Part shown: positions 451 to 60,484 of the stretch, piece after piece | How positions within the stretch are numbered: the first letter of the stretch is position 1 | How the letters are laid out: the number at the start of each line of letters is the position of its first letter | NCBI RefSeq assembly: GCF_004323595.1 | Contig: NZ_AP019373.1 | Coordinates: 1,426,001 to 1,490,000 of the forward strand | Direction: 5' to 3' | DNA: 64,000 nucleotides | Source: Sulfuricystis thermophila | GTDB taxonomy: Bacteria; Pseudomonadota; Gammaproteobacteria; Burkholderiales; Rhodocyclaceae | Made by a program: the position numbers and the translations under genes | The notes under the pieces: generated by a model | The model's input: only the letters and a program-made list of their open reading frames with translations | Database searches by the model: none | Told to the model about the DNA's origin: nothing

Positions 451-596
451 AGAGCTTGTGAAAAAATTCGTCGCGAGCGCAGTCAGGTTGGGGGAGGCCG
501 GAGCGCAGCCACCGGAGTGTATTTGGCAATACATGAGGATGGCGAGCACCGCCCGACCCCAAGATGGCAAGCGCAGCAGAATTTTTCACAAGCTCT
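451..596 (+). repeat. PAL140 palindromic element, copy E1
   Basis: A 146-bp element whose ends are inverted repeats (AGAGCTTGTGAAAAA left, TTTTTCACAAGCTCT right). Inner arms TTGGGG (488-493) and CCCCAA (557-562) can pair, and an apical hairpin TGTAT/ATACA (518-522 with 529-533) lies at the centre. Part of the family core is recognisable (GGAGCGCAGC and GGCGAGCACCGC). Its right end abuts the stop codon of the phosphatase gene, so that stop reads TGA-GAGCTTGTG on the minus strand. No protein is evident. Confidence 0.8.
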
Positions 597-1069
597 CACT
601 TTTGTGGGGCGAGCCGGCTCAACAACCCCTCGGCCGCCGCCTCGACCAAATCGAGGACGATTTCGAAGCCTTCCGGTCCGCCGTAGTAGGGGTCGGGCAC
701 TTCATCGAAACCCCTCTGCGGCGCAAATTCGAGGAACAGACCGAGCTTGCCGTGATGCTCGTCCGGGCAGGCCTGACGCAATAGCGCCAGATTGTCGCAA
801 TCCATCGCCAGGATGCGGTCGAAACGCACGAAGTCGAATTCATTGACCTGACGGGCGCGCAAGCTCGATAGATCGTAGCCGCGCTTTTTCGCCGCTTCCT
901 GCGCGCGTCGATCGGGCGGATTGCCGACGTGATAGCCATGCGTCCCCGCCGAATCGAACTCGAAAAAGTCATGTAATCCGCGCCGCCTGGCCAACTCGCG
1001 CGCCACACCTTCGGCGGTGGGCGAGCGGCAGATGTTGCCCATGCAGACGAACAGGATGCGTTCTCTCAT
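596..1069 (-). CDS. Low-molecular-weight protein tyrosine phosphatase
   Basis: A 157-residue protein with the family's N-terminal P-loop CX5R(S) as 'CMGNICRS' at residues 9-16 and the general-acid loop 'VPDPYYGG' near residue 125, so both catalytic elements are present. Length is normal for the family. It removes phosphate from protein tyrosines or small phosphomonoesters in the cytoplasm. Genes of this type can sit in polysaccharide clusters (Wzb-like), but none is visible here. It starts at an ATG seven bases from the ybaB stop, so it may be the last gene of dnaX-ybaB. PAL140 E1 touches its stop codon. Confidence 0.93.
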   Translation of the reverse strand: MRERILFVCMGNICRSPTAEGVARELARRRGLHDFFEFDSAGTHGYHVGNPPDRRAQEAAKKRGYDLSSLRARQVNEFDFVRFDRILAMDCDNLALLRQACPDEHHGKLGLFLEFAPQRGFDEVPDPYYGGPEGFEIVLDLVEAAAEGLLSRLAPQK

Positions 1070-1076
1070 GGGCGAG

Positions 1077-1403
1077 TCAGAACGGCAGCTTCATCCCCGG
1101 CGGCAGCGGCAGGCCCGCGGTGAGTGCCCCCATGCGTTCCTGAACCGTCGCTTCGACGCGGCGGTTGGCGTCGTTGACCGCCGCGGCGATCAGGTCTTCG
1201 AGCATTTCCTTGTCGTCCATCACCGACGGATCGATGGTGACGCGTTTGACGTCATGTTTGCAGGTCATGACGATCTTCACGGCGCCGGCGCCCGACTGGC
1301 CCTCGACTTCGAGATTGGCCAGCTCTTCCTGCGCCTTCTGCATGTTTTCCTGCATCTTCTGCGCCTGTTTCATCAGGTTGGCGATACCGCCTTTATTCAG
1401 CAT
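1077..1403 (-). CDS. ybaB: YbaB/EbfC nucleoid-associated protein
   Basis: A 108-residue protein beginning '[18 protein letters not shown]', the standard YbaB start, with a long N-terminal coiled helix and a Pro/Gly-rich end. YbaB dimers bind DNA and are linked to nucleoid organisation and recombination. I chose the ATG at 1403 because AAGGA lies about eight bases upstream; an in-frame start at 1430 adds a poorly conserved extension. It follows dnaX, the classic dnaX-ybaB(-recR) order, but recR is not next: the phosphatase gene takes its place. Confidence 0.95.
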
Positions 1404-1668
1404 GTTGCGTTCCTTTAACGTGAAATACAAAGCAAAAAGTGCGCCGCCCTTCGTTTCCTTGATGGCAGCCTACCTTCGCGGCGCAAGCCGCGCTGATCGT
1501 CTCCCCTCCCGCGAGGGGCGGAGGCGGGGTTTCGCGAAGCACTGCTTCGCGCCGCCGGAGCCGGCCGGCTGTGCAAAGCCGGCCGTGGGACAGGCTGGGG
1601 GAGGGCGGGCGTTTATTCTTGCGCATGGGTATTCCATCCTCCGCGGGCACCGATTGCCGGCATGCGCG
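1404..1668. other. Non-coding gap dnaX-ybaB with GC-rich inverted structures
   Basis: This 265-bp gap contains several nested inverted repeats between about 1500 and 1612: CCCCTC/GAGGGG, a CGCGAAGC-A-CTGCTTCGCG palindrome near 1530, and GCCGGCCGGC/GCCGGCCG near 1560-1590, ending in a G-rich stretch. It looks like an intergenic structural repeat that could lie in the dnaX-ybaB transcript. No second copy was found in this window and no ORF is convincing. Confidence 0.45.
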
Positions 1669-3246
1669 TTAGAGGGGTTTGATGGTGGATTCGTCGATGC
1701 TGGCATCGAACAGGTCGCAGACCTCGCGCACGAAGGGATCGCCCTCGATCGCGGCAATCGCCTGTTCCTGCCGCTCTCTTTTCCGCTGGTCTGCGCGCGC
1801 CTTCGGCGTAACGCCGTTCGGCAGGCCGAGCTGGATCTCGAGGGTGACGGGCTGAGCGAAATGTTTCGCCAGTTCGGCACGCAACTTGTCCTGATGCATT
1901 TGCAGGAAACGGTGCGCCGGGTCGAGGCGCAGCACGATCTTCTGGCCGTTACGTTCGACCAGCTCGCAATGCTGGGCGAGCTGGCGCGCCATGCCGGTGA
2001 GCGTATTGCCCTCGACCAGCTCATGCCAGTCGTCAGGAGCAGGCTCCTCCGTTACCGCCGGCGCGGGAGCCGCCGGCACTGCGGATGCCGCTGACGGCGC
2101 GATACCGGCAGCTGGCTTGCGCGCAGGCGCCAGGGCGGCAGCACGCGCGGGCTTCTCCTCGCCGCCACCCGGCCGGAAGGCATGGAGTCGCAGCAAGGTC
2201 ATGCCGAAGCCGGCCGCCTCGTCGGGCGCCAGCGCCAGCTCATCGCGCCCGTGGGTGACGATCTGGTAACAGAGCTGAAGGAATTCGGCATCGAGACGTT
2301 CGGCATACGGCGCAAGCCGCGCACGCTCGGCTTCGTCGAGGATCGCCTCGGGCGCGAACTGGACGAGGGCGATGCGGTGGAACAAGGTCGCCAGCTCTTG
2401 CAGCGCCGCTTCGAAACTCAGGCTGCGTTCTTCCATCGTCCTGGCCACGGCGAGCATCGCCTGGATGTCACCGGCGGCAAGCCCGTCGAGCAGTGCAAAG
2501 AGATGATCGTCGCCGACGGTGCCGAGCATCGATCGCACGCCCTCTTCCTCGACGCGTCCCGCGCCGTGGGCGATCGCCTGATCGAGCAGTGACAACGCAT
2601 CGCGCATCGAGCCGGCCGCCGCCTTGGCGAGATGGCGCAGCGCGGCGGGTTCGAACGGCACGCCCTCGGCTTCGAGCACGCGCGCCAAATGGTCGACGAT
2701 GGCCGCCTGCGGCATCTGCTTCAGGTTGAACTGCAGGCAGCGGGAAAGCACCGTGACGGGGATCTTCTGCGGATCGGTGGTGGCGAGGATGAACTTGACG
2801 TGCTCCGGCGGCTCTTCGAGCGTCTTCAGCATCGCGTTGAAGGCATGCCCGGAGAGCTGGTGCACTTCGTCGATCATATAGACCTTGTAGCGGCCGGCAT
2901 TCGGCGCATAGGCAGCCTTCTCCAGCAGCGCCGCCATGTCCTCGACGCCGCGATTCGAGGCGGCGTCCATTTCGACGTAATCGATGAAGCGGCCGGCGTC
3001 GATCTCGCGGCATGGCGTGCATACGCCGCAGGGCGTGGCGGTGACGCCCTGCTCGCAATTCAGGGCCTTCGCCATGATGCGCGCGATCGTCGTCTTGCCG
3101 ACGCCGCGCGTGCCGGTGAACAGATAAGCGTGATGGAGCCGCTGCTGTTCGAGCGCGTGCTTGAGCGCCCGCACGACATGCTCCTGTCCGACGAGCGTGT
3201 CGAAGGACTTCGGGCGCCACTTGCGGGCAAGAACTTGATAGCTCAT
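1669..3246 (-). CDS. dnaX: DNA polymerase III subunit gamma/tau
   Basis: The clamp-loader ATPase subunit, 525 residues. It starts 'MSYQVLARKWRPKSFDTLVG', with Walker A 'GTRGVGKTT' near residue 45, a four-Cys zinc module (CEQ...CGVCTPC) near 68-82, Walker B 'VYMIDEVHQL' near 122, and the SRC sensor motif. An Ala/Pro-rich linker near 360-400 leads to the tau-specific C-terminal domain that contacts the polymerase and DnaB. I saw no A-rich slippery heptamer like that used for gamma in E. coli, so only tau may be made. The ATG start is well supported. Confidence 0.97.
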   Translation of the reverse strand: MSYQVLARKWRPKSFDTLVGQEHVVRALKHALEQQRLHHAYLFTGTRGVGKTTIARIMAKALNCEQGVTATPCGVCTPCREIDAGRFIDYVEMDAASNRGVEDMAALLEKAAYAPNAGRYKVYMIDEVHQLSGHAFNAMLKTLEEPPEHVKFILATTDPQKIPVTVLSRCLQFNLKQMPQAAIVDHLARVLEAEGVPFEPAALRHLAKAAAGSMRDALSLLDQAIAHGAGRVEEEGVRSMLGTVGDDHLFALLDGLAAGDIQAMLAVARTMEERSLSFEAALQELATLFHRIALVQFAPEAILDEAERARLAPYAERLDAEFLQLCYQIVTHGRDELALAPDEAAGFGMTLLRLHAFRPGGGEEKPARAAALAPARKPAAGIAPSAASAVPAAPAPAVTEEPAPDDWHELVEGNTLTGMARQLAQHCELVERNGQKIVLRLDPAHRFLQMHQDKLRAELAKHFAQPVTLEIQLGLPNGVTPKARADQRKRERQEQAIAAIEGDPFVREVCDLFDASIDESTIKPL

Positions 3247-3266
3247 GCCCGCGATTTTACCTGCGG

Positions 3267-3764
3267 TCAGCCCTGCGGGGGCATCATGCGGCCGTGACGC
3301 CCGCCCATCGGCCCCTTGCCGATACGCGCGGCCTCGCGGTCGGCGATGGCCTTCTGTTCGGGCGTCAATGCCGCATAAAGGCGGTTGAAACTCTCATGCA
3401 CGGCCTTCATTGCGGCCAGACGCTCTTCCATCAAGGCCTCGCGCTTCGCCATGCGTTCCGGCGCGGTGAGCTTGGTATCGGCGGCCAGCGCGCGCATTTC
3501 CATCAGGCCCTTGCCCGCCTCGGCCTGCACTTTCTCGGCAAAGGCGTTCCACAACGCTTCCTGCTCGGGGGTGATCTTGAGCTGGTATTTCTGGTAGTCG
3601 AGACGTTCCTTGACGCGCGCGGCGGGATCGAAGCGCATCGCCGCCGGGCGACCCATCTTGCCCATCGGCCCCATGCCGTCATTGGTCGTCATGCCGGGCT
3701 GGGCAAAGGCGGCCGTGCCGAGGCCGGCGGCGAGAACGAGACCGAGGAAATGTGTGCGTTTCAT
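3267..3764 (-). CDS. Spy/CpxP-like periplasmic protein
   Basis: A 165-residue protein with a clean signal peptide ('MKRTHFLGLVLAAGLGTAAFA', predicted cleavage after AFA), a Met/Gly-rich segment, a helical region and two LTPEQ-type motifs ('KITPEQEALW' and 'ALTPEQKAIA') typical of the Spy/CpxP LTXXQ family. Family members are periplasmic chaperones or envelope- and metal-stress sensors. A strong Shine-Dalgarno AGGAGA lies five bases before the ATG. The Met- and His-rich ends could bind metal; that is inference. Confidence 0.8.
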   Translation of the reverse strand: MKRTHFLGLVLAAGLGTAAFAQPGMTTNDGMGPMGKMGRPAAMRFDPAARVKERLDYQKYQLKITPEQEALWNAFAEKVQAEAGKGLMEMRALAADTKLTAPERMAKREALMEERLAAMKAVHESFNRLYAALTPEQKAIADREAARIGKGPMGGRHGRMMPPQG

Positions 3765-3849
3765 ATGACTCTCCTAGTGAATGAAGTTGGCAGGAGAGAT
3801 TGAGCGCCCCAAAGGTAAGCAGATTATGAGCGCTTTGTAACGAAACGTG

Positions 3850-3908
3850 AGAGCATGTGAAAAATTCTGCTGCACAGCCCGCTCGCGACGAATTTTTTCA
3901 CAAGCTCT
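3850..3908 (-). repeat. PAL140 mini-copy E2 (arms only)
   Basis: A 59-bp palindrome made of the PAL140 terminal arms (AGAGCATGTGAAAAATTC left; GAATTTTTTCACAAGCTCT right) around a short GC-rich loop, without the ~90-bp core. It lies 10 bp beyond the 3' end of the SRP RNA gene, in the direction of that gene's transcription, so it may act as its terminator. Confidence 0.75.
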
Positions 3909-3918
3909 GAGGAAAGGT

Positions 3919-4014
<96 letters not shown>

Positions 4015-4024
4015 ACGACGCAGT

Positions 4025-4891
4025 TTAGCAGCTTTCGCGTTCCAGCCAATCACGCACGATGGCCACCTGCGCATCGTCGAGGAACATCGGCGCATGGCCG
4101 ACCGCCGGGATCTCGACGCTCTCCGCCCGCGGGCCACGGCTGCGCATCGCCGCGACGGTCTCGGGCGAGAGCAGATCGGACTCGGCACCGCGGATCACCA
4201 GCGTCGGGCAGCGGATCGCGTCATAAACCGGCCACAGGTCGATGTCCTGGCCGTCGCGGGCGGCTTCCGCGTAGGGAACGGCGATGCCGGGATCGTAACG
4301 CAGCTGGAAGCGGCCGTTCGGCCCGGCCTTGATGACGTGCTGCGTCAGGTGCTGCCACTGCGCATCGGTGAGCTTGCCAAACGGCGCGGCGATGACACGA
4401 ATGTAGGCCTCGGCTTCCTGCGGCGTGGCGAAGTCGGGCGGCGAAGCGAGGTACTCGCCGATGCGCTGCAAGGCCGCGGCATTGATCAGCGGTCCGACGT
4501 CGTTGAGGATCAGGCGGGCGATCGGCGTTCCGGCTTGCGCCGCCAGCGCCATGCCGATGATGCCACCCATCGAGGTGCCGAGCCAATCGACGCGCTCGAC
4601 ATCGAGCCGGGCGATCAGTGCCACCATGTCCTGGGCATATTGGGGAATCGTGTAGTGATGCGGATCGCGCAGCCAGTCGCTCATCCCGCGCCCGACCACG
4701 TCCGGGCAGACGACGCGAAAGCGGTCGGCGAGGCGCTCGGCGAGATAGTCGAAATCGCGCCCGCAGCGTGTCAGGCCATGCACGCAGACCAGCACGTGAG
4801 AATTGGCGGGATCGCCCCATTCGACATAGGCCATCTTGTGGAACCCGGCCGGGCTCAAGCATTGGACGAATTTTTGACGCATCGTGGTCAT
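4025..4891 (-). CDS. Alpha/beta-fold hydrolase
   Basis: A 288-residue alpha/beta hydrolase: oxyanion region 'CVHGLTRCGRDF', nucleophile elbow 'GTSMGG' (Ser near residue 111), acid in 'RGAESDLL' and catalytic His in 'AVGHAPMF'. The substrate cannot be told; the family covers esterases, lipases and C-C hydrolases. The ATG at 4891 overlaps the comEC stop as ATGA, suggesting translational coupling. A much longer upstream frame exists but is antisense noise over comEC. Confidence 0.85.
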   Translation of the reverse strand: MTTMRQKFVQCLSPAGFHKMAYVEWGDPANSHVLVCVHGLTRCGRDFDYLAERLADRFRVVCPDVVGRGMSDWLRDPHHYTIPQYAQDMVALIARLDVERVDWLGTSMGGIIGMALAAQAGTPIARLILNDVGPLINAAALQRIGEYLASPPDFATPQEAEAYIRVIAAPFGKLTDAQWQHLTQHVIKAGPNGRFQLRYDPGIAVPYAEAARDGQDIDLWPVYDAIRCPTLVIRGAESDLLSPETVAAMRSRGPRAESVEIPAVGHAPMFLDDAQVAIVRDWLERESC

Positions 4892-7179
4892 TCCGTCGCA
4901 GCGAAAACCGTATTGTGCCAGTAGCGCCGCCGCGCTTCGCGTTCGCGCGTGAGTGCCGTGCCGCCAGCGCCGACTTTCAGCGTCACCGCGCCATCGCGGT
5001 CGGTGCGCAGGATGTTGGCGTTTGCATAGCGCGCCAGCACGGAGGGGTGCGGATGGCCGAAGCGGTTGCGGTAGCCGACTGGGAAGATCACCGTCTGCGG
5101 CGCCACCGTCGCGACGAAGGCAGCCGACGAGGTCTTCTTGCCGCCGTGATGCGGGGCGACGAGGACAGCCGCGTGCGCCACATCGCGATGGCGGGTGAGG
5201 AACTCGGCCTCCGCCTGGCCTTCGAGATCGCCGGGAATCAACGCGCTGCCGTGCGGCGATTCGATCTTCAGCACACAGGAGAGCGCATTGCTCGGCAGCT
5301 TGCGCGCATAGTCCGCAGCCTGCGGGTGCAGCACGCGCAAGCGCACCCCATCCCATTCCCAACCTTGACCATCGACACAGCGTCGTTCGACGGCGGTCAC
5401 CGGCAGCGCCGCGAGCAGCGAATCGGCACCGCCAGCATGATCCCGGTCGACATGGCTGATGATCAGCCGGTCGAGCTTGGCCACGCCGATGGCCCGCAGA
5501 TAGGGCGCGACGATACGGCTGCCGGCATCGCTTTGGGCATTGAAGGCCGGGCCGGCATCGAACAAGAGATCGTGCGTCGCGGTCTGCACATGCACCGCCT
5601 GCCCCTGGCCGACATCGAGCACCGTCAGTCGATATTCGCCCGGCGCCGGCCGTTCCGGGCGCACGACGAACAACGGCAGGAACAGCACGGCGCCTGCCCA
5701 GCGCGCCGGAAAGCCGCGCGGCAGCAGCAGCCAGACGACGCCCATGACGGCGAGAGGCACCGCCCAGGCCGGCGGCGCATGCTGTTGCCAGAGCGCGCCC
5801 GGCAATCCGGCAAGCCACTCGAGGAAATCCATCAGCGGCACGAGCAGCGCATGGGCCAGTTGCTGCGCCCAGGCGAAGCCGGGCAGGCTGCCGAGCAAGG
5901 CGAGCGGTGTGATGGCCAGACTGACGAGCGGGATCGCCAGCGCATTGGCGAATGGGGAGACGAGCGAAAACTGCCCAAAGAGCGCCAGGAGCAGCGGGAT
6001 CATCCCGAGCGTGATCGCCCATTGTGCGCGCAGCCATTCGACGAGCCAATGCCGCTCACCAAGCCGGCCGGCGGCGATGAAGAAGAGGATCGCCACCGCG
6101 CCGAACGAGAGCCAAAAGCCGGCAGAGAGCACCGCCCACGGATCGAGGAGCAACACCAGCAACAGGGCAGCGCCGAGCACCGTCGGCGCGGCGAGGTTGC
6201 GCCCGGAGAGCAGCGCGGCGACGACGACGCCGAGCATGTAGAGCGTGCGTTGCGCCGGCACGGCGAAACCGGCCAGCAAGGCGTAGGCAAACGCGCCGAG
6301 GAAGGCCGCCAGCGCCGCGGCCTGCTGCGCCGGAATGAGGAGCGGCAGGCGCGGATGACGCCGCCACAACGCCATGACCAGCCCGCCGATGAGCGCGCCG
6401 ATCATCGTCACATGCAGGCCGGAGATCGACATCAGGTGCGTGATGCCGGTCGCCGCGAACAGCCGCCACAGTTCGGGGGTAATCGATTGCTGGTCGCCGA
6501 TCGCCAGCGCCGCCAGCACGCCCGCGTAAGATGCGTCCGGCAAGACGCGCTGGATGCGCACGCGCACGGCTTCGCGCAGCCGCTCGATGGTCAAGCCGGC
6601 CGGCGCAAGCCGCTGGTTGGCATCCGATTTGCGCACATAACCGGTGGCGCGAATGCCGCGCTCGAGGAGCCAGGCCTCGTAATCGAAGCCATGGGGATTC
6701 AAATTGCCGTGCGGTCGTTTCAGTCGCACCACGAGCCGCCAGCGCTCGCCGGCATGCGGCAGCGGCAGAGCGCCGGGCAGAGTCGCTTCCTCGTCGCCCT
6801 CCTCGCTTTCCGTGTCGACGTGGCGATACCAGGAAAGCAGAATCTTCGCGGGCACCGGCGCACTGGCCGTCTGCGGTTCGAAGACGAAACGCAGACCACG
6901 CTCGAAGCCTTGCGGCATCGTGGCGATCACGCCGGTCATTTCGATGTCGCGGCCCAGCCATTCCACCGGCAGTTCATCATGCATGCGCCTGTGGGCAAAT
7001 GCGCCTGCCCATGTGATGCCGAGCAGTAGAGCGCCGAATACCGCCAATCCACGCCACCGCGACATCAGCAGCGCTCCGCCGCCCAGCCCCAGCGCGGCGA
7101 GCAAACTCGGCGCTGGCAGGACGGCACACTGCTGCAGCAGCCACACGCCCAGCGCGAAAGCCAGCACCCGCCAAGGCAT
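4888..7179 (-). CDS. comEC: ComEC/Rec2 DNA internalisation channel
   Basis: A 763-residue inner-membrane protein with N-terminal membrane segments, an OB-like DUF4131 region, the central Competence domain with many membrane helices ('HLMSISGLHVTMIGALIG' near residue 265) and a C-terminal metallo-beta-lactamase-like domain ('SHVDRDHAGG', 'APHHGGK'). ComEC carries single-stranded DNA into the cytoplasm during natural transformation. Two SR25 copies lie in frame in it: near the N-terminus ('AVLPAPSLLAAL') and near the C-terminus ('KVGAGGTAL'). The ATG at 7179 is chosen because the first membrane helix follows at once; it is divergent from the DUF2062 gene. Confidence 0.93.
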   Translation of the reverse strand: MPWRVLAFALGVWLLQQCAVLPAPSLLAALGLGGGALLMSRWRGLAVFGALLLGITWAGAFAHRRMHDELPVEWLGRDIEMTGVIATMPQGFERGLRFVFEPQTASAPVPAKILLSWYRHVDTESEEGDEEATLPGALPLPHAGERWRLVVRLKRPHGNLNPHGFDYEAWLLERGIRATGYVRKSDANQRLAPAGLTIERLREAVRVRIQRVLPDASYAGVLAALAIGDQQSITPELWRLFAATGITHLMSISGLHVTMIGALIGGLVMALWRRHPRLPLLIPAQQAAALAAFLGAFAYALLAGFAVPAQRTLYMLGVVVAALLSGRNLAAPTVLGAALLLVLLLDPWAVLSAGFWLSFGAVAILFFIAAGRLGERHWLVEWLRAQWAITLGMIPLLLALFGQFSLVSPFANALAIPLVSLAITPLALLGSLPGFAWAQQLAHALLVPLMDFLEWLAGLPGALWQQHAPPAWAVPLAVMGVVWLLLPRGFPARWAGAVLFLPLFVVRPERPAPGEYRLTVLDVGQGQAVHVQTATHDLLFDAGPAFNAQSDAGSRIVAPYLRAIGVAKLDRLIISHVDRDHAGGADSLLAALPVTAVERRCVDGQGWEWDGVRLRVLHPQAADYARKLPSNALSCVLKIESPHGSALIPGDLEGQAEAEFLTRHRDVAHAAVLVAPHHGGKKTSSAAFVATVAPQTVIFPVGYRNRFGHPHPSVLARYANANILRTDRDGAVTLKVGAGGTALTREREARRRYWHNTVFAATE
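4953..4977 (-). repeat. SR25 copy 3 (comEC 3' end)
   Basis: One substitution (GTGCCGTGCCGCC). Read in comEC as 'KVGAGGTAL'. Confidence 0.88.
7103..7127 (+). repeat. SR25 copy 4 (comEC 5' end)
   Basis: Two substitutions (AAACTCGG, GCAGGACGG). Read in comEC as 'AVLPAPSLL'. Confidence 0.85.
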
Positions 7180-7191
7180 TACAATGGCTCC

Positions 7192-9667: not shown

Positions 9668-9691
9668 TGGGGCGGCATGTTAACATGCCTC

Positions 9692-40093: not shown

Positions 40094-40112
40094 GGGTGGG
40101 ATTGTAAGCGAG

Positions 40113-40256
40113 GGAAACCCCTGCGAAACGCCGCGAGCGGGATGATAGCTCGGCGCACGGAGCGCAGCGACCGAGACATATCAACGAGATAGGCGAGGGA
40201 GTGAGCACCGCGCAACGCAGCAGACCGCCCGCGCAGCCAGTTTCGCAGGGGTTTCC
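40113..40256 (+). repeat. PAL140 palindromic element, copy E3
   Basis: A 144-bp element with perfect 17-bp terminal arms (GGAAACCCCTGCGAAAC left, its complement right). These are unrelated in sequence to the arms of E1, E2, E4 and E6. The core GGAGCGCAGCGACCGAGACA and GGCGAGGGAGTGAGCACCGC matches E4 and E5, and the apical stem is TATC/GATA. It fills the gap between the Sua5-like and M50 genes. Confidence 0.85.
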
Positions 40257-40261
40257 GAGGC

Positions 40262-40897
40262 TCAGTCAGGGGTAGTAAGACCGAAAGGCTCCAGCGGCCC
40301 CTTGCCTGCCCGAAGCAAAGTGATCTGGCCGCCGACGAGCTCGATCACCGTCGTCATGCCGCTGCCGCAGGGCCCGGCGTCGATGATCACATCGACGACT
40401 GGATCGAGCCGTGCGCGGATCTCCTCCGGATCGGCGAGTGGCTCATTCTCGCCGGGAAGGATCAGCGTCGAACAGAGGATCGGTTCGTCCAGGGCGGCGA
40501 GCAGCGCGCGCGTCACCGGGTGGTCGGGCACGCGCAGACCGATGGTCTTCTTCTTTGGATGCAGCACGCGGCGCGGCAACTCCTTCGTGCCTTCGAGGAT
40601 GAAGGTGTAGGGCCCGGGAGTGGCGGCCTTGAGCAGCCGATATTGGGCGTTATCGACGCGCGCATAGGTGGCGATTTCAGACAGATCGCGGCACATCAGC
40701 GTGAAATGATGCCGCTCATCGACGCCTCTGATGCGCCGGATGCGTTCGAGCAGCGCGGCATCGCCGAGGTGCCCGCCCAGCGCATAGGCCGAATCGGTGG
40801 GGAAGACCGCCAGCCCGCCTTTGCGAACGAGCTCCGCGGCACGGTCGATCAGGCGCGGCTGCGGGTTCTTCGGATGAACCGCGAAACACTCCGCCAA
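40262..40897 (-). CDS. Sua5/YciO/YrdC-family protein
   Basis: A 211-residue YrdC-fold protein ('LAVFPTDSAYALGGHLG', 'HHFTLMCRDLSEIA', 'GPYTFILEGTKELPRR', 'TIGLRVPDHPVTRALL'). YrdC/TsaC makes threonylcarbamoyl-AMP for tRNA t6A; this variant looks more like YciO, whose role is less certain. The only plausible start is TTG 40897, two bases beyond the PHP gene stop. Confidence 0.88.
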   Translation of the reverse strand: MAECFAVHPKNPQPRLIDRAAELVRKGGLAVFPTDSAYALGGHLGDAALLERIRRIRGVDERHHFTLMCRDLSEIATYARVDNAQYRLLKAATPGPYTFILEGTKELPRRVLHPKKKTIGLRVPDHPVTRALLAALDEPILCSTLILPGENEPLADPEEIRARLDPVVDVIIDAGPCGSGMTTVIELVGGQITLLRAGKGPLEPFGLTTPD

Positions 40898-51074: not shown

Positions 51075-51088
51075 TGCACCATTTTCCC

Positions 51089-52510
51089 ATGAGAGCTTGT
51101 AGAAAAAATCGTCGCGAGCGGGCCGATGGCAAGGCGCCCGGAGCGCAGCGACCGAGACATACCATACAGGTAGGCGAGGGAGCGAGCACCGCGCAACACA
51201 GCCAGCGGGCCGCGCAGCAGAGTTTTTCACAAGCTCTGCCATGCATCGATTTTCTGTGGCTCCCTTACACCCAAATGGCCACCGCACCCGCGCCGTTGCC
51301 GGTCGTGGCTGCCGAAGGGGTGCGCATTCGGCTGGCCGATGGCCGGGAACTGATCGATGGCATTTCTTCCTGGTGGACGATGTGCCATGGTTACCGCCAT
51401 CCGCACATCGTCGCCGCCGTGAAAAACCAGCTCGACATCCTGCCGCATGTGATGTTCGCCGGCCTCGTCCATGAGCCGGCGATCCATCTCGCGCGGCGGC
51501 TCGCCGCATGGCTGCCGGGCGAACTCGACCGCGTATTTTTCTCCGAATCCGGCTCGGTCGCCGTCGAGGTGGCGCTCAAGATCGCCGTGCAGTATTGGCG
51601 CAACCGCGGCGAGGATCGCCACCGGTTCCTTGCCTTCAAGGAGGGCTACCACGGCGACACGCTGGGTGCGCTCTCGGTCACCGATCCCGGCTGCGGCTTT
51701 CATGCCGCGATGGCCGCCTACCGCGTGCCGCACCTCTTCGCCTCGCTGCCGCGCGATGCAGCGACGCACGCCGCGCTCGACGCAATGCTCGCTCAGCATG
51801 GCAAGAGTATCGCCGCCGTCATCGTCGAGCCGCGCGTGCAAGGCGCCGGCGGCATGCGCTTCCACGATGCCGAGACACTGCGCCTAATCCGCGCCGCCTG
51901 CGATGCGCACGGCATCCTGCTGATCCATGATGAGATCATGACCGGCTTCGGCCGCACCGGCACGATGTTCGCGACCCCCGACGATGCGCTGCCAGACATC
52001 CTGTGCCTGTCGAAAGCGCTCACCGGCGGCACGCTGCCGCTCGCCGCCACCGTTGCCACCGATCGTGTCTTCGCCGCGTTTTGCTCCGCACGCACCGAGG
52101 ATGCCCTGATGCACGGCCCGACCTTCATGGCCAATCCCCTGGCCTGCGCGGCGGCGAATGCTTCGCTCGATCTGTTCGAGACCGAGCCGAGACTGCAGCA
52201 GGTCGCCGCGATCGAGGCGCAGATGAAGCGCGAGCTCGAACCCTGCCGCACGCTGCCCGGTGTCGCCGATGTGCGCGTCATGGGCGCGATCGGTGTCGTC
52301 GAGCTCGATCGCCCGGTCGCTGCGAGCCTGCGCCCCGCCTTCATCGAGCGGGGAGTCTGGGTGCGGCCCTTCGGCGACATCGTCTATCTCGCGCCGCCCT
52401 TCGTCATCGACACGGCCGATCTTTCGACCTTGACGACGGCGGTCTTTGATGTCGTCAGCGACTGGTCGAAACAGGCCGGCTCCGCTTCATGCCCACTCTC
52501 GACGCCCTGA
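51089..52510 (+). CDS. bioA: Adenosylmethionine-8-amino-7-oxononanoate aminotransferase with repeat-encoded N-terminus
   Basis: A BioA aminotransferase: 'WLPYTQM' (substrate Tyr), 'DGISSWWTMCHGYRHP', 'SGSVAVEVALKIA', the PLP lysine in 'LCLSKALTGGTLPL' and 'MHGPTFMANPLACAAANASL'. It forms 7,8-diaminononanoate. The conserved domain begins at ~51245, but the next in-frame ATG (51274) would delete the PYT motif. The only upstream ATG (51089) precedes PAL140 E4, whose translation gives a ~51-residue extension including 'KAPGAQRPRHTIQVGE'. A non-AUG start near 51236 is the alternative. No Shine-Dalgarno is seen. Confidence 0.92.
   Translation: MRACRKNRRERADGKAPGAQRPRHTIQVGEGASTAQHSQRAAQQSFSQALPCIDFLWLPYTQMATAPAPLPVVAAEGVRIRLADGRELIDGISSWWTMCHGYRHPHIVAAVKNQLDILPHVMFAGLVHEPAIHLARRLAAWLPGELDRVFFSESGSVAVEVALKIAVQYWRNRGEDRHRFLAFKEGYHGDTLGALSVTDPGCGFHAAMAAYRVPHLFASLPRDAATHAALDAMLAQHGKSIAAVIVEPRVQGAGGMRFHDAETLRLIRAACDAHGILLIHDEIMTGFGRTGTMFATPDDALPDILCLSKALTGGTLPLAATVATDRVFAAFCSARTEDALMHGPTFMANPLACAAANASLDLFETEPRLQQVAAIEAQMKRELEPCRTLPGVADVRVMGAIGVVELDRPVAASLRPAFIERGVWVRPFGDIVYLAPPFVIDTADLSTLTTAVFDVVSDWSKQAGSASCPLSTP
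51092..51237 (+). repeat. PAL140 palindromic element, copy E4
   Basis: 146 bp with AGAGCTTGT.../...ACAAGCTCT arms. Core GGAGCGCAGCGACCGAGACA and GGCGAGGGAGCGAGCACCGC, apical stem TACC/GGTA. It occupies the whole bioD-bioA divergent gap, begins right after an ATG, and is open in the bioA frame throughout. Confidence 0.88.
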
Positions 52511-53595
52511 TCGCGCCCCGGCTCGCGAAGCTCGATGCGGCGAATCTGCGGCGCAGGCTCGTCGCGATCGATCCGTCGCTCGTCGATGTCGCCTCGAACG
52601 ATTATCTGGGGCTCTCCCGCCATCCACTCGTCATCGAGCGCGCCTGTGAATGGGCCGCCCGGCATGGCGCCGGCAGCCGCGCATCGCGGCTCGTCACCGG
52701 CACCAGTGATGAACTGCTCGCGCTGGAAGCACGGCTCGCCCGCTTCAAGGGCACGGAAGCCGCGCTGATCTTCGCCAGCGGCTTTCAGCTCAACAGCTCG
52801 GTGTTGCCGGCCTTGCTGGAACTGGGAGACGCGCCGCCCGTCTTCACCGATCGCTTGAACCACGCCAGCCTCCATGCCGGATTGCGCGGCGTGAAACAGA
52901 TCCGTTTCCGCCACAACGATCTCGCGCACCTCGAAAGCCTTTTGTTGCAGCACCCGGGCAAGACGCGCTGGATCGTCACCGAGTCGGTGTTCAGCATGGA
53001 TGGCGACACGGCCGACGTCGCCGCGCTCGCCAGGCTTGCGGAAAAGCATGGCGCCTTTCTCTATCTCGACGAAGCCCATGCCACCGGCGTGCTGGGGCCG
53101 CAGGGCAGCGGGCTTTCGCAAGGCCGCGCCACCGTGACGATGGGCACGCTCGGCAAGGCGCTCGGGGGGGCTGGAGCCTATGTCGCCGGCTCACAGGCAT
53201 TGATCGACTGGCTTGTCAACCGCTGCGCCGGCTTCATCTACAGCACCGCGCCGGCGCCGGCGGCCCTGGGCGCGCTCGATGCGGCGCTCGACCTCGTGCC
53301 CACGATGGATGCCGAGCGCGCGCGACTGATGCAGATGGCCGATACGCTGCGCCAGACCCTGCGATCACGCGGGTTCGACACCCTCGCCTCAGAAACGCAG
53401 ATCATCCCCGCGGTGCTGAATGATGCACAACGTGCGCTCGAAGCCGCGGCAAAGTTGCGCGCGGCAGGCATCCTCGCTGTCGCGATCCGTCCACCGACGG
53501 TGCCCGCCGACACCGCGCGGCTGCGGTTCTCGCTCTCGGCGGCGCTCGATGAGGGGAAATTCGCGCGCCTGCTCGCGGCGGTGGAGCGCCTGTGA
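52489..53595 (+). CDS. bioF: 8-amino-7-oxononanoate synthase
   Basis: A 368-residue alpha-oxoamine synthase: 'NDYLGLSRHPLVI', 'GSRASRLVTGTSDE', 'FTDRLNHASLHAG', 'LDEAHATGVLGPQGSG' and the PLP lysine in 'TMGTLGKALGGAGAY'. It condenses pimeloyl-ACP/CoA with alanine. It overlaps the end of bioA by 22 bp and the bioH start (GTGA). Confidence 0.96.
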   Translation: MPTLDALIAPRLAKLDAANLRRRLVAIDPSLVDVASNDYLGLSRHPLVIERACEWAARHGAGSRASRLVTGTSDELLALEARLARFKGTEAALIFASGFQLNSSVLPALLELGDAPPVFTDRLNHASLHAGLRGVKQIRFRHNDLAHLESLLLQHPGKTRWIVTESVFSMDGDTADVAALARLAEKHGAFLYLDEAHATGVLGPQGSGLSQGRATVTMGTLGKALGGAGAYVAGSQALIDWLVNRCAGFIYSTAPAPAALGALDAALDLVPTMDAERARLMQMADTLRQTLRSRGFDTLASETQIIPAVLNDAQRALEAAAKLRAAGILAVAIRPPTVPADTARLRFSLSAALDEGKFARLLAAVERL

Positions 53596-54365
53596 ATACC
53601 GTCGTGCTCGTCCATGGCTGGGGCTACGATGCGCACCTGTGGGATGCGGTACGCCCCTTGCTCGACCCGGCGCTTCCCGTCGTCACCCTCGATTTCGGCT
53701 ACTTCGGTGCCGTCTTGCCAGCGCCGACTTTCCCTGAGGAAACGCTGAAGAAGGCCGCGAGCGGGATGCAGCGCAAGGCGCCCGGAGCGCAGCGACCGAG
53801 ACATACCATACAGGTAGGCGAGGAAGCGAGCACCGCGCAACGCGGCGATGCGCCCGCGCAGCAACTTATTCAGCGTTTCCCTAGCCCTGTCCTCGCCGTC
53901 GGCCACTCACTCGGCACCCTCTGGTGGCTTGCGCAGTCGGCCATCCCCTGGCGGCGCCTGCTGTCGATCAACGGCTTTCCGCGCTTTGTCGCAACGGGAA
54001 ACTATGCCCCCGCCGTCGCGCCGCGCGTGCTCTCCCGCATGAAACGGCAATTCCAGCGTGAACCCATGGCGGTGCTGGCCGAATTCCACGCCCGCTGCGG
54101 TGGCCATGCACCGAGCGGCTCGCCCAATCTCGAGCGTCTCGCGGCCGGGCTCGATGCCTTGGGCGAGTGGGACGGCCGCGCGCAGCTCGCCGCGCGCCGC
54201 AGCGATGTCGTCGCGCTGGCCGGCACGCGCGATCCGATCGTCCCGGCGGAGATGAGCACGATGGCCTTCGGGACGGTCGAGTTCATCGAAACCACGGGGC
54301 ACCTGCTGCCCGTGACCCATCCGGAAATCTGTGCACGCTGGATCGAAAGGCTCGCCCGTGCGTAA
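53592..54365 (+). CDS. bioH: Pimeloyl-[ACP] methyl ester esterase BioH with repeat insertions
   Basis: A 257-residue alpha/beta hydrolase: 'LVHGWGYDAHLW', nucleophile Ser106 in 'AVGHSLGTLWW', Asp214 in 'GTRDPIVP' and His237 in 'TTGHLLPV'. It frees pimeloyl-ACP from its methyl ester after BioC. Between the HGWG strand and the nucleophile, residues ~39-47 come from SR25 copy 17 and ~49-96 from PAL140 E5, which reads 'KAPGAQRPRHTIQVGE' like the BioA extension. Ser106 is thus ~24 positions later than in E. coli BioH. The frame stays open and all catalytic residues are kept. GTG start. Confidence 0.9.
   Translation: MNTVVLVHGWGYDAHLWDAVRPLLDPALPVVTLDFGYFGAVLPAPTFPEETLKKAASGMQRKAPGAQRPRHTIQVGEEASTAQRGDAPAQQLIQRFPSPVLAVGHSLGTLWWLAQSAIPWRRLLSINGFPRFVATGNYAPAVAPRVLSRMKRQFQREPMAVLAEFHARCGGHAPSGSPNLERLAAGLDALGEWDGRAQLAARRSDVVALAGTRDPIVPAEMSTMAFGTVEFIETTGHLLPVTHPEICARWIERLARA
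53707..53731 (-). repeat. SR25 copy 17 (in bioH)
   Basis: Two substitutions (GTCTTGCCAG). Read in bioH as 'GAVLPAPTF'; it lies 5 bp before PAL140 E5. Confidence 0.85.
53737..53880 (+). repeat. PAL140 palindromic element, copy E5 (inside bioH)
   Basis: 144 bp with 16-bp arms (GGAAACGCTGAAGAAG left; CTTATTCAGCGTTTCC right; 15 of 16 pair), different from all other copies. Core and apical stem (TACC/GGTA) are almost identical to E4. It is fully translated in the bioH frame. Confidence 0.88.
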
Positions 54366-55784: not shown

Positions 55785-56092
55785 GCTGGTGGCCGCTGTG
55801 GCTCGCCTGCGGACTCGTCACTTTCGCGATCCGCTATTCCTTCATCGCGCTCGAAGGCCACTACAAGCCGCCGGCCTGGTTCATCCGCGCGTTGCCCTTC
55901 GTGCCGATCGCCGCCCTCACCGCGATCACCGCGCCGGAACTCCTGCTGGTGGCTGGCCGACTACAGGTCACCGACAATCCGCGCCTGCTGGCGGGCATCG
56001 TCGCCATCGCCGTCGCCGCGCGCTGGAAAAACACGCTCGCCACCATCGCCAGCGGTTTCGCTGCGCTTTGGCTGCTACGTGCGTTTTCGTAA
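55781..56092 (+). CDS. azlD: AzlD-family transporter subunit
   Basis: A 103-residue three-helix membrane protein ('WLACGLVTFAIRYSFIALEG', 'ALPFVPIAALTAITAPELL', '[20 protein letters not shown]'), the usual partner of AzlC. It overlaps azlC (ATGA) and ends the biotin-azl run. Confidence 0.92.
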   Translation: MSWWPLWLACGLVTFAIRYSFIALEGHYKPPAWFIRALPFVPIAALTAITAPELLLVAGRLQVTDNPRLLAGIVAIAVAARWKNTLATIASGFAALWLLRAFS

Positions 56093-56274
56093 AAATATCG
56101 AACCAAAAACTGTCGATTATTTTTACACTTAGCCTAAGTCATCAAAAGTTATACAATTACAACATATTGATTTATATGCAATAAGTCATGGAAACAAAAG
56201 CTGGTGCGAATTTCGCTTTGCTAAATTGTTGATGTTCAGATTTAGCAATTGTGTTGACATGAAAGGAGTTACTC
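56093..56274. other. AT-rich intergenic region before PEP-CTERM gene
   Basis: 182 bp that are clearly richer in A and T than the surroundings. It must hold the promoter of the PEP-CTERM gene; I could not settle on one -35/-10 pair. AAAGGAGTT gives a strong Shine-Dalgarno at its right edge. Confidence 0.5.
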
Positions 56275-56952
56275 ATGAAGTCAAAACCGCTTTCCCGCAC
56301 ACTTCTGACTTCTGCCGCTCTGCTGACACTGGGAGCAGCACCTGTACATGCTGCCACTATCAATTGGACCGACTGGACGAGTGTAAGCGCGGCCGCATCA
56401 CAGGTGTTCGGCATTCTTACCGTTGGTTCAAGCACTGTCAATGTAACTTACAGTGGCGCGTACAATACTGTCCAAACCAGCGGAGGGACAAATTACTGGA
56501 ATCCTGATGCACCCTACCTCAGTACAACTGTCGAAAATGCCCCTCCGGCCTCCGACATCATCACACTCGGTCAAGGCGGCTCCAAAACCATCACATTCTC
56601 TCAAGCAGTGGTCGATCCGCTCATTGCTTTGGTGAGCTGGAACGGCAATACCGTCGATTTTGGCGTCCCGATCGAGATTCTGAGCTACGGTACTGGATAT
56701 TGGGGATACGGTACCCCAATCCTGAACAATTCGGGAACCGGGTTTTATGGAAATGGTGAGGTCCATGGTGTAATTAAGCTACCGGGCACTTTCACATCAA
56801 TTACTTTTAACGACACTTCCGAATGGTGGCACGGTTTCACTGTCGGCGTGATCGGTCTAGGCTCTTCAAACGGTGTACCCGAACCCGCGTCGCTCGCCTT
56901 GCTGGGTATGGGTCTCGCCGGTCTCGCCGGGCTGCGGCGCCGCAAAGCTTAA
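56275..56952 (+). CDS. PEP-CTERM sorted exported protein
   Basis: A 225-residue protein with an N-terminal signal peptide ('LLTSAALLTLGAAPVHA', cleavage after VHA), a Ser/Thr/Gly/Asn-rich beta-type middle and the C-terminal sorting tag 'VPEPASLALLGMGLAGLAGL' plus RRRKA. Such proteins are processed by EpsH/XrtA exosortases in exopolysaccharide-producing bacteria. The exact role is unknown. GC content and codon use are lower than in neighbours, as is common for this class. A terminator follows. Confidence 0.92.
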   Translation: MKSKPLSRTLLTSAALLTLGAAPVHAATINWTDWTSVSAAASQVFGILTVGSSTVNVTYSGAYNTVQTSGGTNYWNPDAPYLSTTVENAPPASDIITLGQGGSKTITFSQAVVDPLIALVSWNGNTVDFGVPIEILSYGTGYWGYGTPILNNSGTGFYGNGEVHGVIKLPGTFTSITFNDTSEWWHGFTVGVIGLGSSNGVPEPASLALLGMGLAGLAGLRRRKA

Positions 56953-56985
56953 CTTAAGCCTTACAAAATCAATGTTGCTCTCTCA

Positions 56986-57008
56986 CGGCGGCCAATGGCC
57001 GCCGTTTT
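56986..57008 (+). terminator. Terminator of PEP-CTERM gene
   Basis: CGGCGGCC-AAT-GGCCGCCG followed by TTTT: a perfect 8-bp GC stem, 34 bp after the stop codon. Confidence 0.85.
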
Positions 57009-57155
57009 CATTTGCAAGAATGCGCTTCCCTTCCCTGAACATCGACAAGCCAGCGCAGTAGCATCACACGATGCGGATGTCGAGGCCATAATGAATCCCG
57101 GATAGCTCCTCCACCTATAATCACTCACTACTGTCCGACGATCCCAAGCCTTGCC

Positions 57156-57575
57156 ATGCCCTCCCAGCCCACGAAAACCCTCGAAACCTTCCCCAATCCG
57201 GCGCCGCAGCGGGATTACCAGATCCACATGGAAATTCCGGAATTCACCTGCCTGTGCCCGAAGACCGGCCAGCCGGATTTCGCCGTGCTCACGCTCGATT
57301 ACGTGCCGGACAAGCTGTGCGTGGAGCTCAAAAGCCTCAAGCTCTACATCTGGAGCTTCCGCGACGAAGGTCATTTTCACGAGGACGTGACGAACCGCAT
57401 CCTCGACGATCTCGTGCGCGCCGTGAAGCCCCGCTTCATGCGGCTCACCGCGCGCTTCTTTGTCCGCGGCGGCATCTTCACCAACGTCGTCGCCGAGCAT
57501 CGCAAGAAGGGCTGGAAACCTCAGCCACGCGTCGAGCTCGCAGAATTCGAGGCCCAGTCGAACACACGCGGCTGA
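57156..57575 (+). CDS. queF: NADPH-dependent 7-cyano-7-deazaguanine reductase
   Basis: A 139-residue, single-domain (YkvM-type) QueF: catalytic Cys in '[14 protein letters not shown]', substrate motif '[21 protein letters not shown]' in two parts. It reduces preQ0 to preQ1 in queuosine synthesis. Stop and the start of the next gene are two bases apart. Confidence 0.96.
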
Positions 57576-57577
57576 TC

Positions 57578-58303
57578 ATGACGCCCCGCCCTTTCGGCTT
57601 TGCGGACATCGGCCGGGCGCTCGCCGAGGGCTGGAGCATGACGAAAGCCACGCGGGCGGCCAGCCTCGCCTATGCAGGAATCTTCACGCTGCTCGGCGCG
57701 ATCATCCTCGGCGGGCTGCTCCTTGAGGGTTTCACGCCCTTCGTCGTCGCCGCGGCGGGTGCCTTCATGCTGGTCGGCCCGGCGATCCTCGCCGGTTTCT
57801 TCGGCATCGCACGCGCTTGCGAAGCCGGCGCGAAAGTCGGCGCTGGCGAGACGGCACGGGGCTTTGCCGCGGCCGCACCGGCGCTCTGGGCGCTCGCGCT
57901 CGTCTGCGCGCTGCTGTTCATGATCTTCGTCACCGACGCGGCGATCCTCTACAGTTACATGGTCGGCGGCACGCCGGTGTGGCTCGCCGATCTGATCCCG
58001 ACCTCGGCAGGTGTGGCGAACTTCCTCTTCTGGGGCGCGGTGTCGGGATTCGTGATCGCTTTTCTGCTCTACTGCGTCTCGGCCTTTTCGGCGCCGCTGT
58101 TGATCGAGCGCCGCGCCGGTCTCGTCGATGCCGTCGTCGCCAGCGTGCACGCGGTGTTCGGCAATTTTCTGCCGGCGATGGCCTGGGCCGCGCTGCTTTC
58201 CGTCCTGGTCATCGGCAGCATCCTGATCCTGCCGCTGTTGCCGCTCACCCTGCCGTGGCTGGCCTATGCCAGCCGCGCGCTGTATCGTCACGTCATGCCA
58301 TGA
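57578..58303 (+). CDS. DUF2189-type integral membrane protein
   Basis: A 241-residue protein with about six hydrophobic segments in two three-helix halves, matching the DUF2189 pattern ('AGIFTLLGAIILGGLLLEG', 'FMLVGPAILAGFFGIARACE'). The function is not known. SR25 copy 18 is translated as 'KVGAGETARG' in the cytoplasmic loop after the third helix, where charged linkers are tolerated. It overlaps dapC (ATGA). Confidence 0.75.
   Translation: MTPRPFGFADIGRALAEGWSMTKATRAASLAYAGIFTLLGAIILGGLLLEGFTPFVVAAAGAFMLVGPAILAGFFGIARACEAGAKVGAGETARGFAAAAPALWALALVCALLFMIFVTDAAILYSYMVGGTPVWLADLIPTSAGVANFLFWGAVSGFVIAFLLYCVSAFSAPLLIERRAGLVDAVVASVHAVFGNFLPAMAWAALLSVLVIGSILILPLLPLTLPWLAYASRALYRHVMP
57833..57857 (+). 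repeat. SR25 copy 18 (in DUF2189 gene)
   Basis: One substitution (GCGAGACGG). Same strand as the gene, read as 'KVGAGETA'. Confidence 0.85.
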
Positions 58304-59505
58304 ACCCGAATCTCGACAAGCTCCAGCCCTATCCGTTCGAAAAGCTGCGCGCACTGTTTGCCGGCTGCACCCCGCCCGCCCACCTGAACGAAATCAAGCT
58401 GCACATCGGCGAGCCGCAACACCCGACGCCGCAACTCGTCAAAGACGCGCTCACGGCCAGTCTCGCCGGACTCGCCAGTTACCCGGCCACCAACGGTTCC
58501 GACGCGCTGCGCCAGGCGATCGCCGCCTGGATCGGCCGCCGCTATGGCATTCCAGCTCCCGATGCAGCAAGCCAGGTGCTGCCGGTCAATGGCTCGCGCG
58601 AGGCCTTGTTCGCCTTCGCCCAGACCGTCGTCGCGCCGCGCCGCCACGAACAACCGGTGGTGATCTCGCCCAACCCCTTCTACCAGATCTACGAGGGCGC
58701 GGCGCTGCTCGCCGGCGCACGACCGTTCTATCTCAACACGCTGCCGGAAAACGGTTTCCGCATGGATTTCTCGCGCGTCCCGGAAGAGGTCTGGCAGCAG
58801 ACCCAGCTCATCTACGTCTGCTCGCCCGGCAACCCGACCGGTAAGGTGATGCCGCTCGAAGACTGGCAGATGCTGTTCGAGCTGTCCGACCGCCATGGTT
58901 TCGTCATCGCCGCCGACGAATGCTATTCGGAGATCTACTTCGACGAGACCCAGCCGCCGCTCGGCGGGCTGGAAGCGGCGCGGCAGCTCGGCCGCGACGA
59001 CTACAAGAATCTCGTCATGTTTTCGAGCCTGTCGAAACGCTCGAACGTGCCGGGGCTGCGTTCGGGCTTCGTCGCCGGCGATGCGACGATCCTCAAGCAG
59101 TTCTGGCTCTACCGCACCTATCATGGTTGTGCGATGAGCCCACCCGTGCAGGCCGCCAGCATCGCCGCCTGGAACGACGAGGCGCACGTGCGCGACAACC
59201 GCCGTCGCTACGTCGAGAAATTCGCCCAGGCAACCCCGATCATTGCGCGGCATCTGAAAACCGCGCTGCCGGACGCCGGCTTTTATCTCTGGGCCAACGT
59301 TTCTTCCACTGGGCTTTCCGACAGCGAATTCGCCCGGCGGCTCCATGCTCAATATAATGTGAGCGTCCTGCCCGGCAGCTTTCTCGCTCGTGACGCCGGC
59401 GGCTGCAACCCCGGCCGTAACTTCGTGCGCATTGCGCTGGTCGCCGACCTCGATGAATGTCTCGCCGCGGCGGAACGCATCGCCGCCTTCTGCACCTCAC
59501 TCTGA
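58300..59505 (+). CDS. dapC: Succinyldiaminopimelate transaminase
   Basis: A 401-residue class I/II aminotransferase: 'KLHIGEPQHPTPQLV', 'YVCSPGNPTGKVMPL', 'DECYSEIYFDE' and the PLP lysine in 'FSSLSKRSNVPGLRSGF'. It acts in the succinylase branch of lysine/meso-diaminopimelate synthesis; its neighbours dapD and dapE catalyse the steps on either side. ATG 58300 overlaps the preceding stop. Confidence 0.95.
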   Translation: MNPNLDKLQPYPFEKLRALFAGCTPPAHLNEIKLHIGEPQHPTPQLVKDALTASLAGLASYPATNGSDALRQAIAAWIGRRYGIPAPDAASQVLPVNGSREALFAFAQTVVAPRRHEQPVVISPNPFYQIYEGAALLAGARPFYLNTLPENGFRMDFSRVPEEVWQQTQLIYVCSPGNPTGKVMPLEDWQMLFELSDRHGFVIAADECYSEIYFDETQPPLGGLEAARQLGRDDYKNLVMFSSLSKRSNVPGLRSGFVAGDATILKQFWLYRTYHGCAMSPPVQAASIAAWNDEAHVRDNRRRYVEKFAQATPIIARHLKTALPDAGFYLWANVSSTGLSDSEFARRLHAQYNVSVLPGSFLARDAGGCNPGRNFVRIALVADLDECLAAAERIAAFCTSL

Positions 59506-59520
59506 ACACAAGGAACCACC

Positions 59521-60339
59521 ATGTCCGAACTGCAAAGCCTGATCGAACAATACTGGGAAGACCGCGCCCATCTCAAGCCAGGCGCTGCCCCCGCGCGTCT
59601 TGGCGAAGCCGTCAAGACCGTGCTCGACGAACTCGACCGTGGCACCTTACGTGTCGCCGAGAAGATCGACGGCCAGTGGGTCACCCACCAGTGGGTCAAG
59701 AAGGCGGTGCTGCTGTCATTCCGCCTCGAAGACAACGTCGTCATGGAAAGCGGCTGCCTGCGCTACTTCGACAAGGTGCCGACCAAGTTCGCGCGTTACG
59801 ACACGCACCTGTTCCAGAAGGGCGGCTTCCGCGTCGTACCGGGCGCCGTGGTGCGCCGCGGTTCCTACATCGCGCCGTCCGTCGTGCTGATGCCGAGCTT
59901 CGTCAATATCGGTGCCTATGTCGGCGAGGGCACGATGGTCGATACCTGGGCCACCGTCGGTTCCTGCGCCCAGATCGGCAAGAACGTGCATCTGTCCGGC
60001 GGCGTCGGCATCGGCGGCGTGCTGGAACCCTTGCAGGCCAATCCGACCATCATTGGCGACAACTGCTTCATCGGCGCGCGCTCGGAGATCGTCGAGGGCG
60101 TCATCGTCGAGGACAACTGCGTGATCTCGATGGGCGTGTTCATCGGCCAGAGCACCAAGATCTATGATCGCGCCACCGGCGAGATCCTCTACGGCCGCGT
60201 GCCGGCCGGCTCCGTCGTCGTCAGCGGCAACCTGCCCTCGAAGGATGGCAGCTACAGCCTCTACTGCGCGGTGATCGTCAAGAAGGTCGACGCGCAGACC
60301 CGTTCCAAGACCAGCATCAACGAACTGCTGCGCGACTGA
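59521..60339 (+). CDS. dapD: Tetrahydrodipicolinate N-succinyltransferase
   Basis: A 272-residue left-handed beta-helix acyltransferase ('[20 protein letters not shown]', '[20 protein letters not shown]', '[20 protein letters not shown]'). It succinylates tetrahydrodipicolinate. AAGGAACC precedes the ATG. The stop codon TGA is fused to the end of PAL140 E6 (TGAGAGCTTGTG). Confidence 0.97.
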
Positions 60340-60484
60340 GAGCTTGTGAAAAATTCTGCTGCGCTTGCCAATACTTTGTTGCTCGTTCGCTCAAGTCTGC
60401 GCCTATCTCAAATGATATGTCTTGACTTTCGCTCACTCGCGTCGCGTCTTGGCTGCGCTCGCGACGAATTTTTTCCCAGCCTCT
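60339..60484 (-). repeat. PAL140 palindromic element, copy E6
   Basis: 146 bp in inverse orientation. Right arm is the AGAGCTTGTGAAAAATTCTG type; the other arm has decayed (CCCAGCCTCT). On the minus strand the apical stem is TATC/GATA with a different loop from E3, and sub-terminal arms GCCAA/TTGGC pair. The core is the most diverged of the family. It separates dapD from pilU. Confidence 0.75.

Follow-up and report, generated by a model that had tools for sequence, protein, structure and literature searches.

We analyzed a 64,000-nucleotide stretch of the Sulfuricystis thermophila genome (contig NZ_AP019373.1, positions 1,426,001 to 1,490,000), hereafter the window, which carries five full copies and one mini-copy of a palindromic element that we call PAL140. 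The original prediction had placed the ends of these six elements to within one base, and the terminal arms and apical stems that it quoted are present. Four full copies lie on the plus strand. The copy at 452 to 595 has GAG..CTC arms, a TGTAT/ATACA apex, and a sub-terminal TTGGGG/CCCCAA helix (94.7 bits with a covariance model), and it is flanked by TCA on both sides (449 to 451 and 596 to 598). The copy at 40114 to 40255, with GAAACCCCTGCGAAAC arms (140.8 bits), sits within a 5-bp duplication, CGAGG (40109 to 40113 and 40256 to 40260). Two further copies, both matched by empty sites in congeners, are found at 51093 to 51236 (GAG..CTC arms, TACC/GGTA apex, 171.3 bits; flanks TGA at 51090 to 51092 and TGC at 51237 to 51239) and at 53738 to 53880 (GGAAACGCTGAA arms, 130.9 bits; flanks CTGA at 53734 to 53737 and CTAG at 53881 to 53884). 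The fifth full copy, on the minus strand at 60340 to 60483 (81.3 bits), has a diverged core, a GCCAA/TTGGC sub-terminal helix, and TGA on either side (60337 to 60339 and 60484 to 60486). The mini-copy, also on the minus strand (3851 to 3907, 45.7 bits), has lost most of its core but kept its terminal arms; it is positioned 8 bp downstream of the signal recognition particle RNA gene (3916 to 4014, minus strand, RF00169) and could be part of the 3' end of that gene.

The 53738 copy lies in frame within an alpha/beta-hydrolase open reading frame (ORF) at 53592 to 54365, as judged from the ORF and Pfam, and its 143 bp together with a 4-bp duplication make an in-frame insertion of 49 codons directly before the GHSLG motif of the enzyme. 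Immediately to its left, a short motif at 53702 to 53732 has matches of 25 to 50 bases in at least eight congeners and seems to be a small repeat of this genus in its own right.

Genomic copies were then collected with a covariance model built from 30 of them, as the original prediction had advised, and this search returned 65 matches at an E value of 0.01 or better, 56 of which span at least 130 nt. The conserved, unpaired core block described earlier, GGAGCGCAGCGACCGAGACA, is exact at 40114, 51093, and 53738, three of the five full copies, altered at 452, and absent at 60340; across the 2.74-Mb genome, this 20-mer has 32 matches with at most two mismatches, versus none for a reversed-pattern control. 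The length of the element is mostly 138 to 149 bp (66 elements). Shorter relatives of 121 to 122 nt (L086 and L087) retain the sub-terminal boxes and a long hairpin. Six others (L011, L013, L018, L037, L130, and L133), with differing end classes, host an extra hairpin module of ∼64 to 85 bp (AAAACGAAGTTTCGGCG..), apparently inserted at one common internal site. At a further locus of the same genome (L129, 1955900 to 1958100), an IS110-family RNA-guided transposase gene (NF033542 match, 248 bits) is embedded in the apical part of a PAL140 copy whose ends lie at 1956260 and 1957709.

PAL140 copies sort into classes according to their arms, which form terminal inverted repeats, as in miniature inverted-repeat transposable elements (MITEs), and two of these classes showed target-site duplications of different lengths. 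An exact 3-bp duplication was found in 31 of 44 copies of the GAG..CTC class (mean of 14.4 and maximum of 23 in 200 shuffles), the flanks being TNA triplets, and an exact 5-bp duplication in 7 of 12 copies of the GAAACC class (mean of 0.65 and maximum of 3, again in 200 shuffles); the signal was weak or unscored in the other classes. By eye, several GGAAAC and CAGG copies have 4-bp YTAR-like duplications. Five further GGAA-type copies have exact 4-bp duplications, which are not independent evidence since the script that positioned their ends favored duplications. Many GAG-class copies adjoin the end of a predicted ORF (several loci), which is expected since a TNA target duplicates TGA or TAA.

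Insertion polymorphism of PAL140 was seen both in the empty sites of congeners and in length variants of Escherichia coli. One congener (G002) lacks both the 51093 and the 53738 copies, with near-exact joins and continuous surrounding sequence (81 to 86% identity). Among ten congeners, the join at the 51093 site measured −3 bases in six, −2 in one, and +19 in one, was uninterpretable in one, and had no flank match in one; at the 53738 site, it measured −3 or −4 in eight, +5 in one, and −13 in one. Joins of −3 or −4 are predicted from a 3- or 4-bp duplication. At L187 and L191, the left flank of the 53738 site is reversed, apparently via inversion of a short repeat located there. No coding capacity was found in PAL140, whose lengths are 138 to 149 in 66 elements: selection for ORFs running through the element was rejected, as 122 open frames were counted versus 115 expected.

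We then compared the ends of PAL140 with those of insertion sequences (IS). PAL140-like ends surround a DDE transposase in 7 of 31 IS loci examined (L097, L210, L212, L213, L214, L217, and L231), each having on both sides a 14-mer that differs from a PAL140 end by about one mismatch at most. Three of these transposases, from L097, L210, and L213, belong to the IS5 family (319, 340, and 346 bits, respectively, for a cut-off of 140), and those of L212, L214, L217, and L231 were matched to PF01609 only. The end classes shared in this way are GGAAAC, CAGG, GAAGG, and GAACCC-like, each thus having a potential donor, as is typical of MITEs, and some of the matching IS loci have 4-bp flanks of the CTAG/CTAA/TTAA type. 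The PAL140 core was not seen in the 70-base ends of the seven matching IS elements, and the core model R2 gave two matches in the 31 IS loci (L215, strong; L218, weak), both external to the IS. The original prediction overlooked this mobile-element nature of the palindromes. The duplications, empty sites, and matching IS ends explain most of the covariation of the outer arms by a change of transposase, and the terminal arms by themselves are thus no evidence of a fold.

To evaluate the inner part separately, we aligned 66 elements from 49 genomes or records with MAFFT, without structure, after trimming 15 nt from each refined end (alignment A3). These represent 66 of 73 covariance matches, five having been dropped because they were shorter than 135 nt and two as opposite-strand duplicates; of 29 loci handled earlier by another script, 7 had been skipped as too short and were included later, in A2 and A3. 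The default consensus fold of A3 gave 14 pairs only, and we used the structure obtained with ribosum scoring. With the arms removed, 85.6% of 2,094 cells are paired, and 29 of 33 pairs vary on both sides. The inner covariation score reached 0.377, versus 0.136 in shuffled alignments (none of 500 reaching 0.377) and at most 0.089 with slid partners, the structure being derived from the same alignment, which tends to inflate values relative to the slid controls. Covariation had been claimed for three helices; it stands for the two inner ones, whereas the terminal arms are transposon ends. The selected fold that had been proposed is likewise retained for the inner hairpin, and these results support the view that this hairpin is a selected single-strand fold.

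Folding of individual elements is mostly beyond chance as well. With RNA parameters, the ten strands tested had z scores between −8.0 and −2.7 (−8.0 for 452 to 596 and −3.3 for the 60340 element), and with DNA parameters, five of six strands lay between −6.4 and −4.3, the 60340 element being the exception. The hairpin contains purine-rich internal loops (GA/GA, GC/AA, and GA/GCA), which recur at fixed positions across genera: internal-loop columns are 81% purine versus 52% in paired columns, and GA/GA accounts for 76 of the 148 2x2 loops of the GA strand. There are two apical subtypes, one of which has, by eye, Watson-Crick pairs where the other has a GA/GA loop. Among 35 copies typed in the S. 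thermophila genome, 3 of 16 apex haplotypes were shared between end classes, a pattern to be expected from an exchange of cores between copies or from a change of ends.

The GA strand was the better-folding one in 44 of 66 elements with RNA parameters and in 55 of 66 with DNA parameters. In the terminal arms, G.T mismatches exceeded A.C ones (44 versus 16, p 2e-4, with one count per end-cluster, position, and type; 86 of 98 elements used), and the same was observed for inner pairs with two flanking Watson-Crick pairs (25 versus 6 in A3 and 25 versus 7 in A4, an alignment fitted to a model). The purine-rich loops and the G.T excess in the arms suggest that one strand, the GA-rich one, is the folding strand.

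PAL140 extends well beyond S. thermophila. Matches were found in 21 of 61 genomes (15 of 43 genera) of a set of relatives, in 45 of 369 genomes of a class set, and in 50 of 398 genomes of a phylum set; these sets overlap, contain the S. thermophila genome, and were searched with stricter filters, which lose weak matches. A pattern for one apical subtype hit 13 loci in named records, covering Rhodocyclaceae, Thiobacillaceae, Nitrosomonas, Burkholderiales, and Geobacteraceae, and including an isolate of Trichlorobacter thiogenes (phylum Thermodesulfobacteriota). Copies in E. coli and Salmonella are more distant: blastn aligned about two thirds of the element, with E values of 3e-8 and 2e-12. With the core model R2, the E values were 8e-6 to 0.008 for four copies on a single E. 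coli chromosome and 3e-6 in Salmonella. We read these data as placing members of PAL140 in Nitrosomonas and Geobacteraceae as well, with E. coli and Salmonella more weakly matched. One E. coli copy has matches in 5,375 of 5,426 E. coli genomes, at a median of five places, with sites that include pyrH-frr, ffh-rpsP, qseE-qseG, and rlmKL-ycbX. Within the species, the copy at ffh-rpsP is variable: 2,209 of the 5,375 genomes had a query coverage of 80% or more, and the two strains aligned that have a shorter version lack 112 bp. In Salmonella, tgt and queA flank a copy, and the same interval in K-12 consists of a 55-bp gap only. Searches of phages and one plasmid search gave no PAL140 match.

Rickettsia palindromic elements measure ∼150 bp, and PAL140 resembles them in this size and in having one copy in frame inside a gene but differs in that its open frames are not above chance. 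They are mentioned in passages of PMC10969869. With IS5-family insertion sequences, PAL140 has terminal repeats in common (7 of the 31 IS loci), yet it has no transposase gene, and its core was not found inside the matching IS elements. The homologous repeat of E. coli may correspond to the RSA repeat of the older literature, of ∼152 bp. A survey of 40 genomes names, in the passages seen, the E. coli repeats BoxC, ERIC, PU-BIME, and Eco-1 and not RSA (PMC2267715), and the sequence of the enterobacterial RU-3 printed in an excerpt of PMC2759123 is, by eye, unlike PAL140. Excerpts of PMC10969869 and PMC2229807 describe bacterial MITEs (e.g., NEMIS/Correia, ERIC/RU-1, and QMITE2 of Coxiella) as small, with terminal inverted repeats, target duplications, and stem-loop folding, and QMITE2 as being, in addition, a target of IS1111. 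PAL140 has these four features but, unlike those MITEs, combines a single core with many end classes, occurs across genera and in another phylum, and has an inner covariation that was tested. For Rfam 15 and the sequences scanned, the earlier statement that no named family fits is correct: no element scored above the gathering threshold in the window or in six loci, whose sole match falls outside the element. No description of the family was found at the level of titles, beginnings of abstracts, and passages, and the portions seen of PMC4666352 and PMC3733652 did not help with PAL140.

Altogether, we favor the interpretation that PAL140 is a superfamily of MITEs endowed with a selected fold, probably of one strand, and we consider it probable. 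Several observations weigh against it. An exact 11-mer search of the S. thermophila genome revealed no donor IS carrying GAG..CTC ends, and the copy-rich genomes G004 and G007 have no PF01609 match at 1e-10. Exact 4-bp duplications were scarce as scored (2 of 14 GGAAAC and 3 of 8 CAGG copies), and 32 elements with other end types gave little duplication signal. As for the fold, the 60340 element is not significant with DNA parameters (z of −1.1), conservation is no higher in internal-loop columns than in paired ones (0.74 versus 0.75), and the structure was counted on the alignment that yielded it. The G.T excess is not uniform either: inner counts were not significant without filtering (95 versus 80 in A3 and 69 versus 52 in A4), filtered distinct pair-and-type counts were only 10 versus 6 (A3) and 9 versus 6 (A4), and all mismatches of the arm-to-arm alignments gave the reverse (88 G.T versus 235 A.C, with 18 elements richer in G.T and 64 in A.C). 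In our view, both this reversal and the missing excess in the unfiltered inner counts stem from A.C positions that are fixed in conserved loops. A G.T excess may also be produced by C-to-T mutation that affects the strands unequally. Finally, a role of the fold at the DNA level is itself a proposal.

The same MITE could instead have a fold selected as RNA, the GA strand forming, upon read-through, a hairpin that would shield or insulate the mRNA of the host or act as a protein-binding site. The strong folding with RNA parameters speaks for it, a tolerance of G.T is consistent with G.U pairs, and co-directional genes flank 35 of 87 scored loci. Yet PAL140 showed no orientation bias relative to the coding strand (19 versus 16 between co-directional genes and 5 versus 5 inside ORFs, with genes from a simple heuristic caller and 21 of 87 loci unclear), and a sigma-70-type scan of 40100 to 40270, covering one element, revealed no promoter-like and no terminator-like site. 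We regard an RNA role as doubtful. Replichore orientation was not significantly biased (Fisher p of 0.11 to 0.29 for 56 copies and three assumed terminus positions), and since there is no significant orientation link to genes or replichore, we lean toward a fold that acts in single-stranded DNA, in the element's own life cycle.

Complementary arms may also arise without selection when replication template switching, a process known in general, uses one arm of a quasi-palindrome to rewrite its counterpart, the covariation being then a by-product. This should erase mismatches, whereas the purine-rich loops are fixed in place across genera, and an excess of G.T over A.C in the arms is not expected from it, which makes this explanation improbable. 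PAL140 could also consist of ordinary IS5-derived MITEs whose hairpin arose by chance from long inverted repeats and is not under selection. Its ends and duplications are indeed typical of such MITEs, but the IS elements that share these ends lack the core, and covariation of the inner helices is far above that of the slid controls, so that we judge this still less credible. Repetitive extragenic palindromic (REP) sequences moved by an HUH transposase of the RAYT type are likewise palindromic, numerous, and mostly outside ORFs; as the genome has no Y1_Tnp (PF01797) match and target duplications and IS5-like ends do not fit, we give this origin almost no credence.

Under the favored interpretation, that of MITEs with a selected fold, PAL140 elements would be non-autonomous transposons that borrow IS5-type transposases. 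The outermost 15 to 18 bp on each side are terminal inverted repeats, varying from copy to copy, several of them matching IS ends in the same genome or in relatives, and end classes differ in the length of the target duplication, as seen for two of them. Between the ends lies a conserved hairpin, in which compensatory mutations have altered the helices from genus to genus. Judging from the shared apex haplotypes, gene-conversion-like exchange among copies would spread the same core and apex over several end classes. We propose tentatively, at somewhat less than even chances, that the fold serves the life cycle of the element in single-stranded DNA, for example by drawing both ends together in replication-linked mobilization. 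More speculatively still, PAL140 may be a structure-first mobile element, i.e., a lineage defined by a single-strand fold, specific to one strand and conserved between Geobacteraceae and E. coli, that would aid mobilization and end matching, with terminal repeats that could be swapped so that different transposases carry the same core.

MITEs are commonly regarded as decayed insertion sequences and are defined by their ends. In PAL140, the ends change while the inner fold persists over a wide taxonomic range. If our interpretation is true, the folded core would be a unit of selection, and PAL140 would offer a test case for transposase switching by non-autonomous elements, as well as a wider family for the repeat matched in nearly all of the E. 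coli genomes mentioned above.

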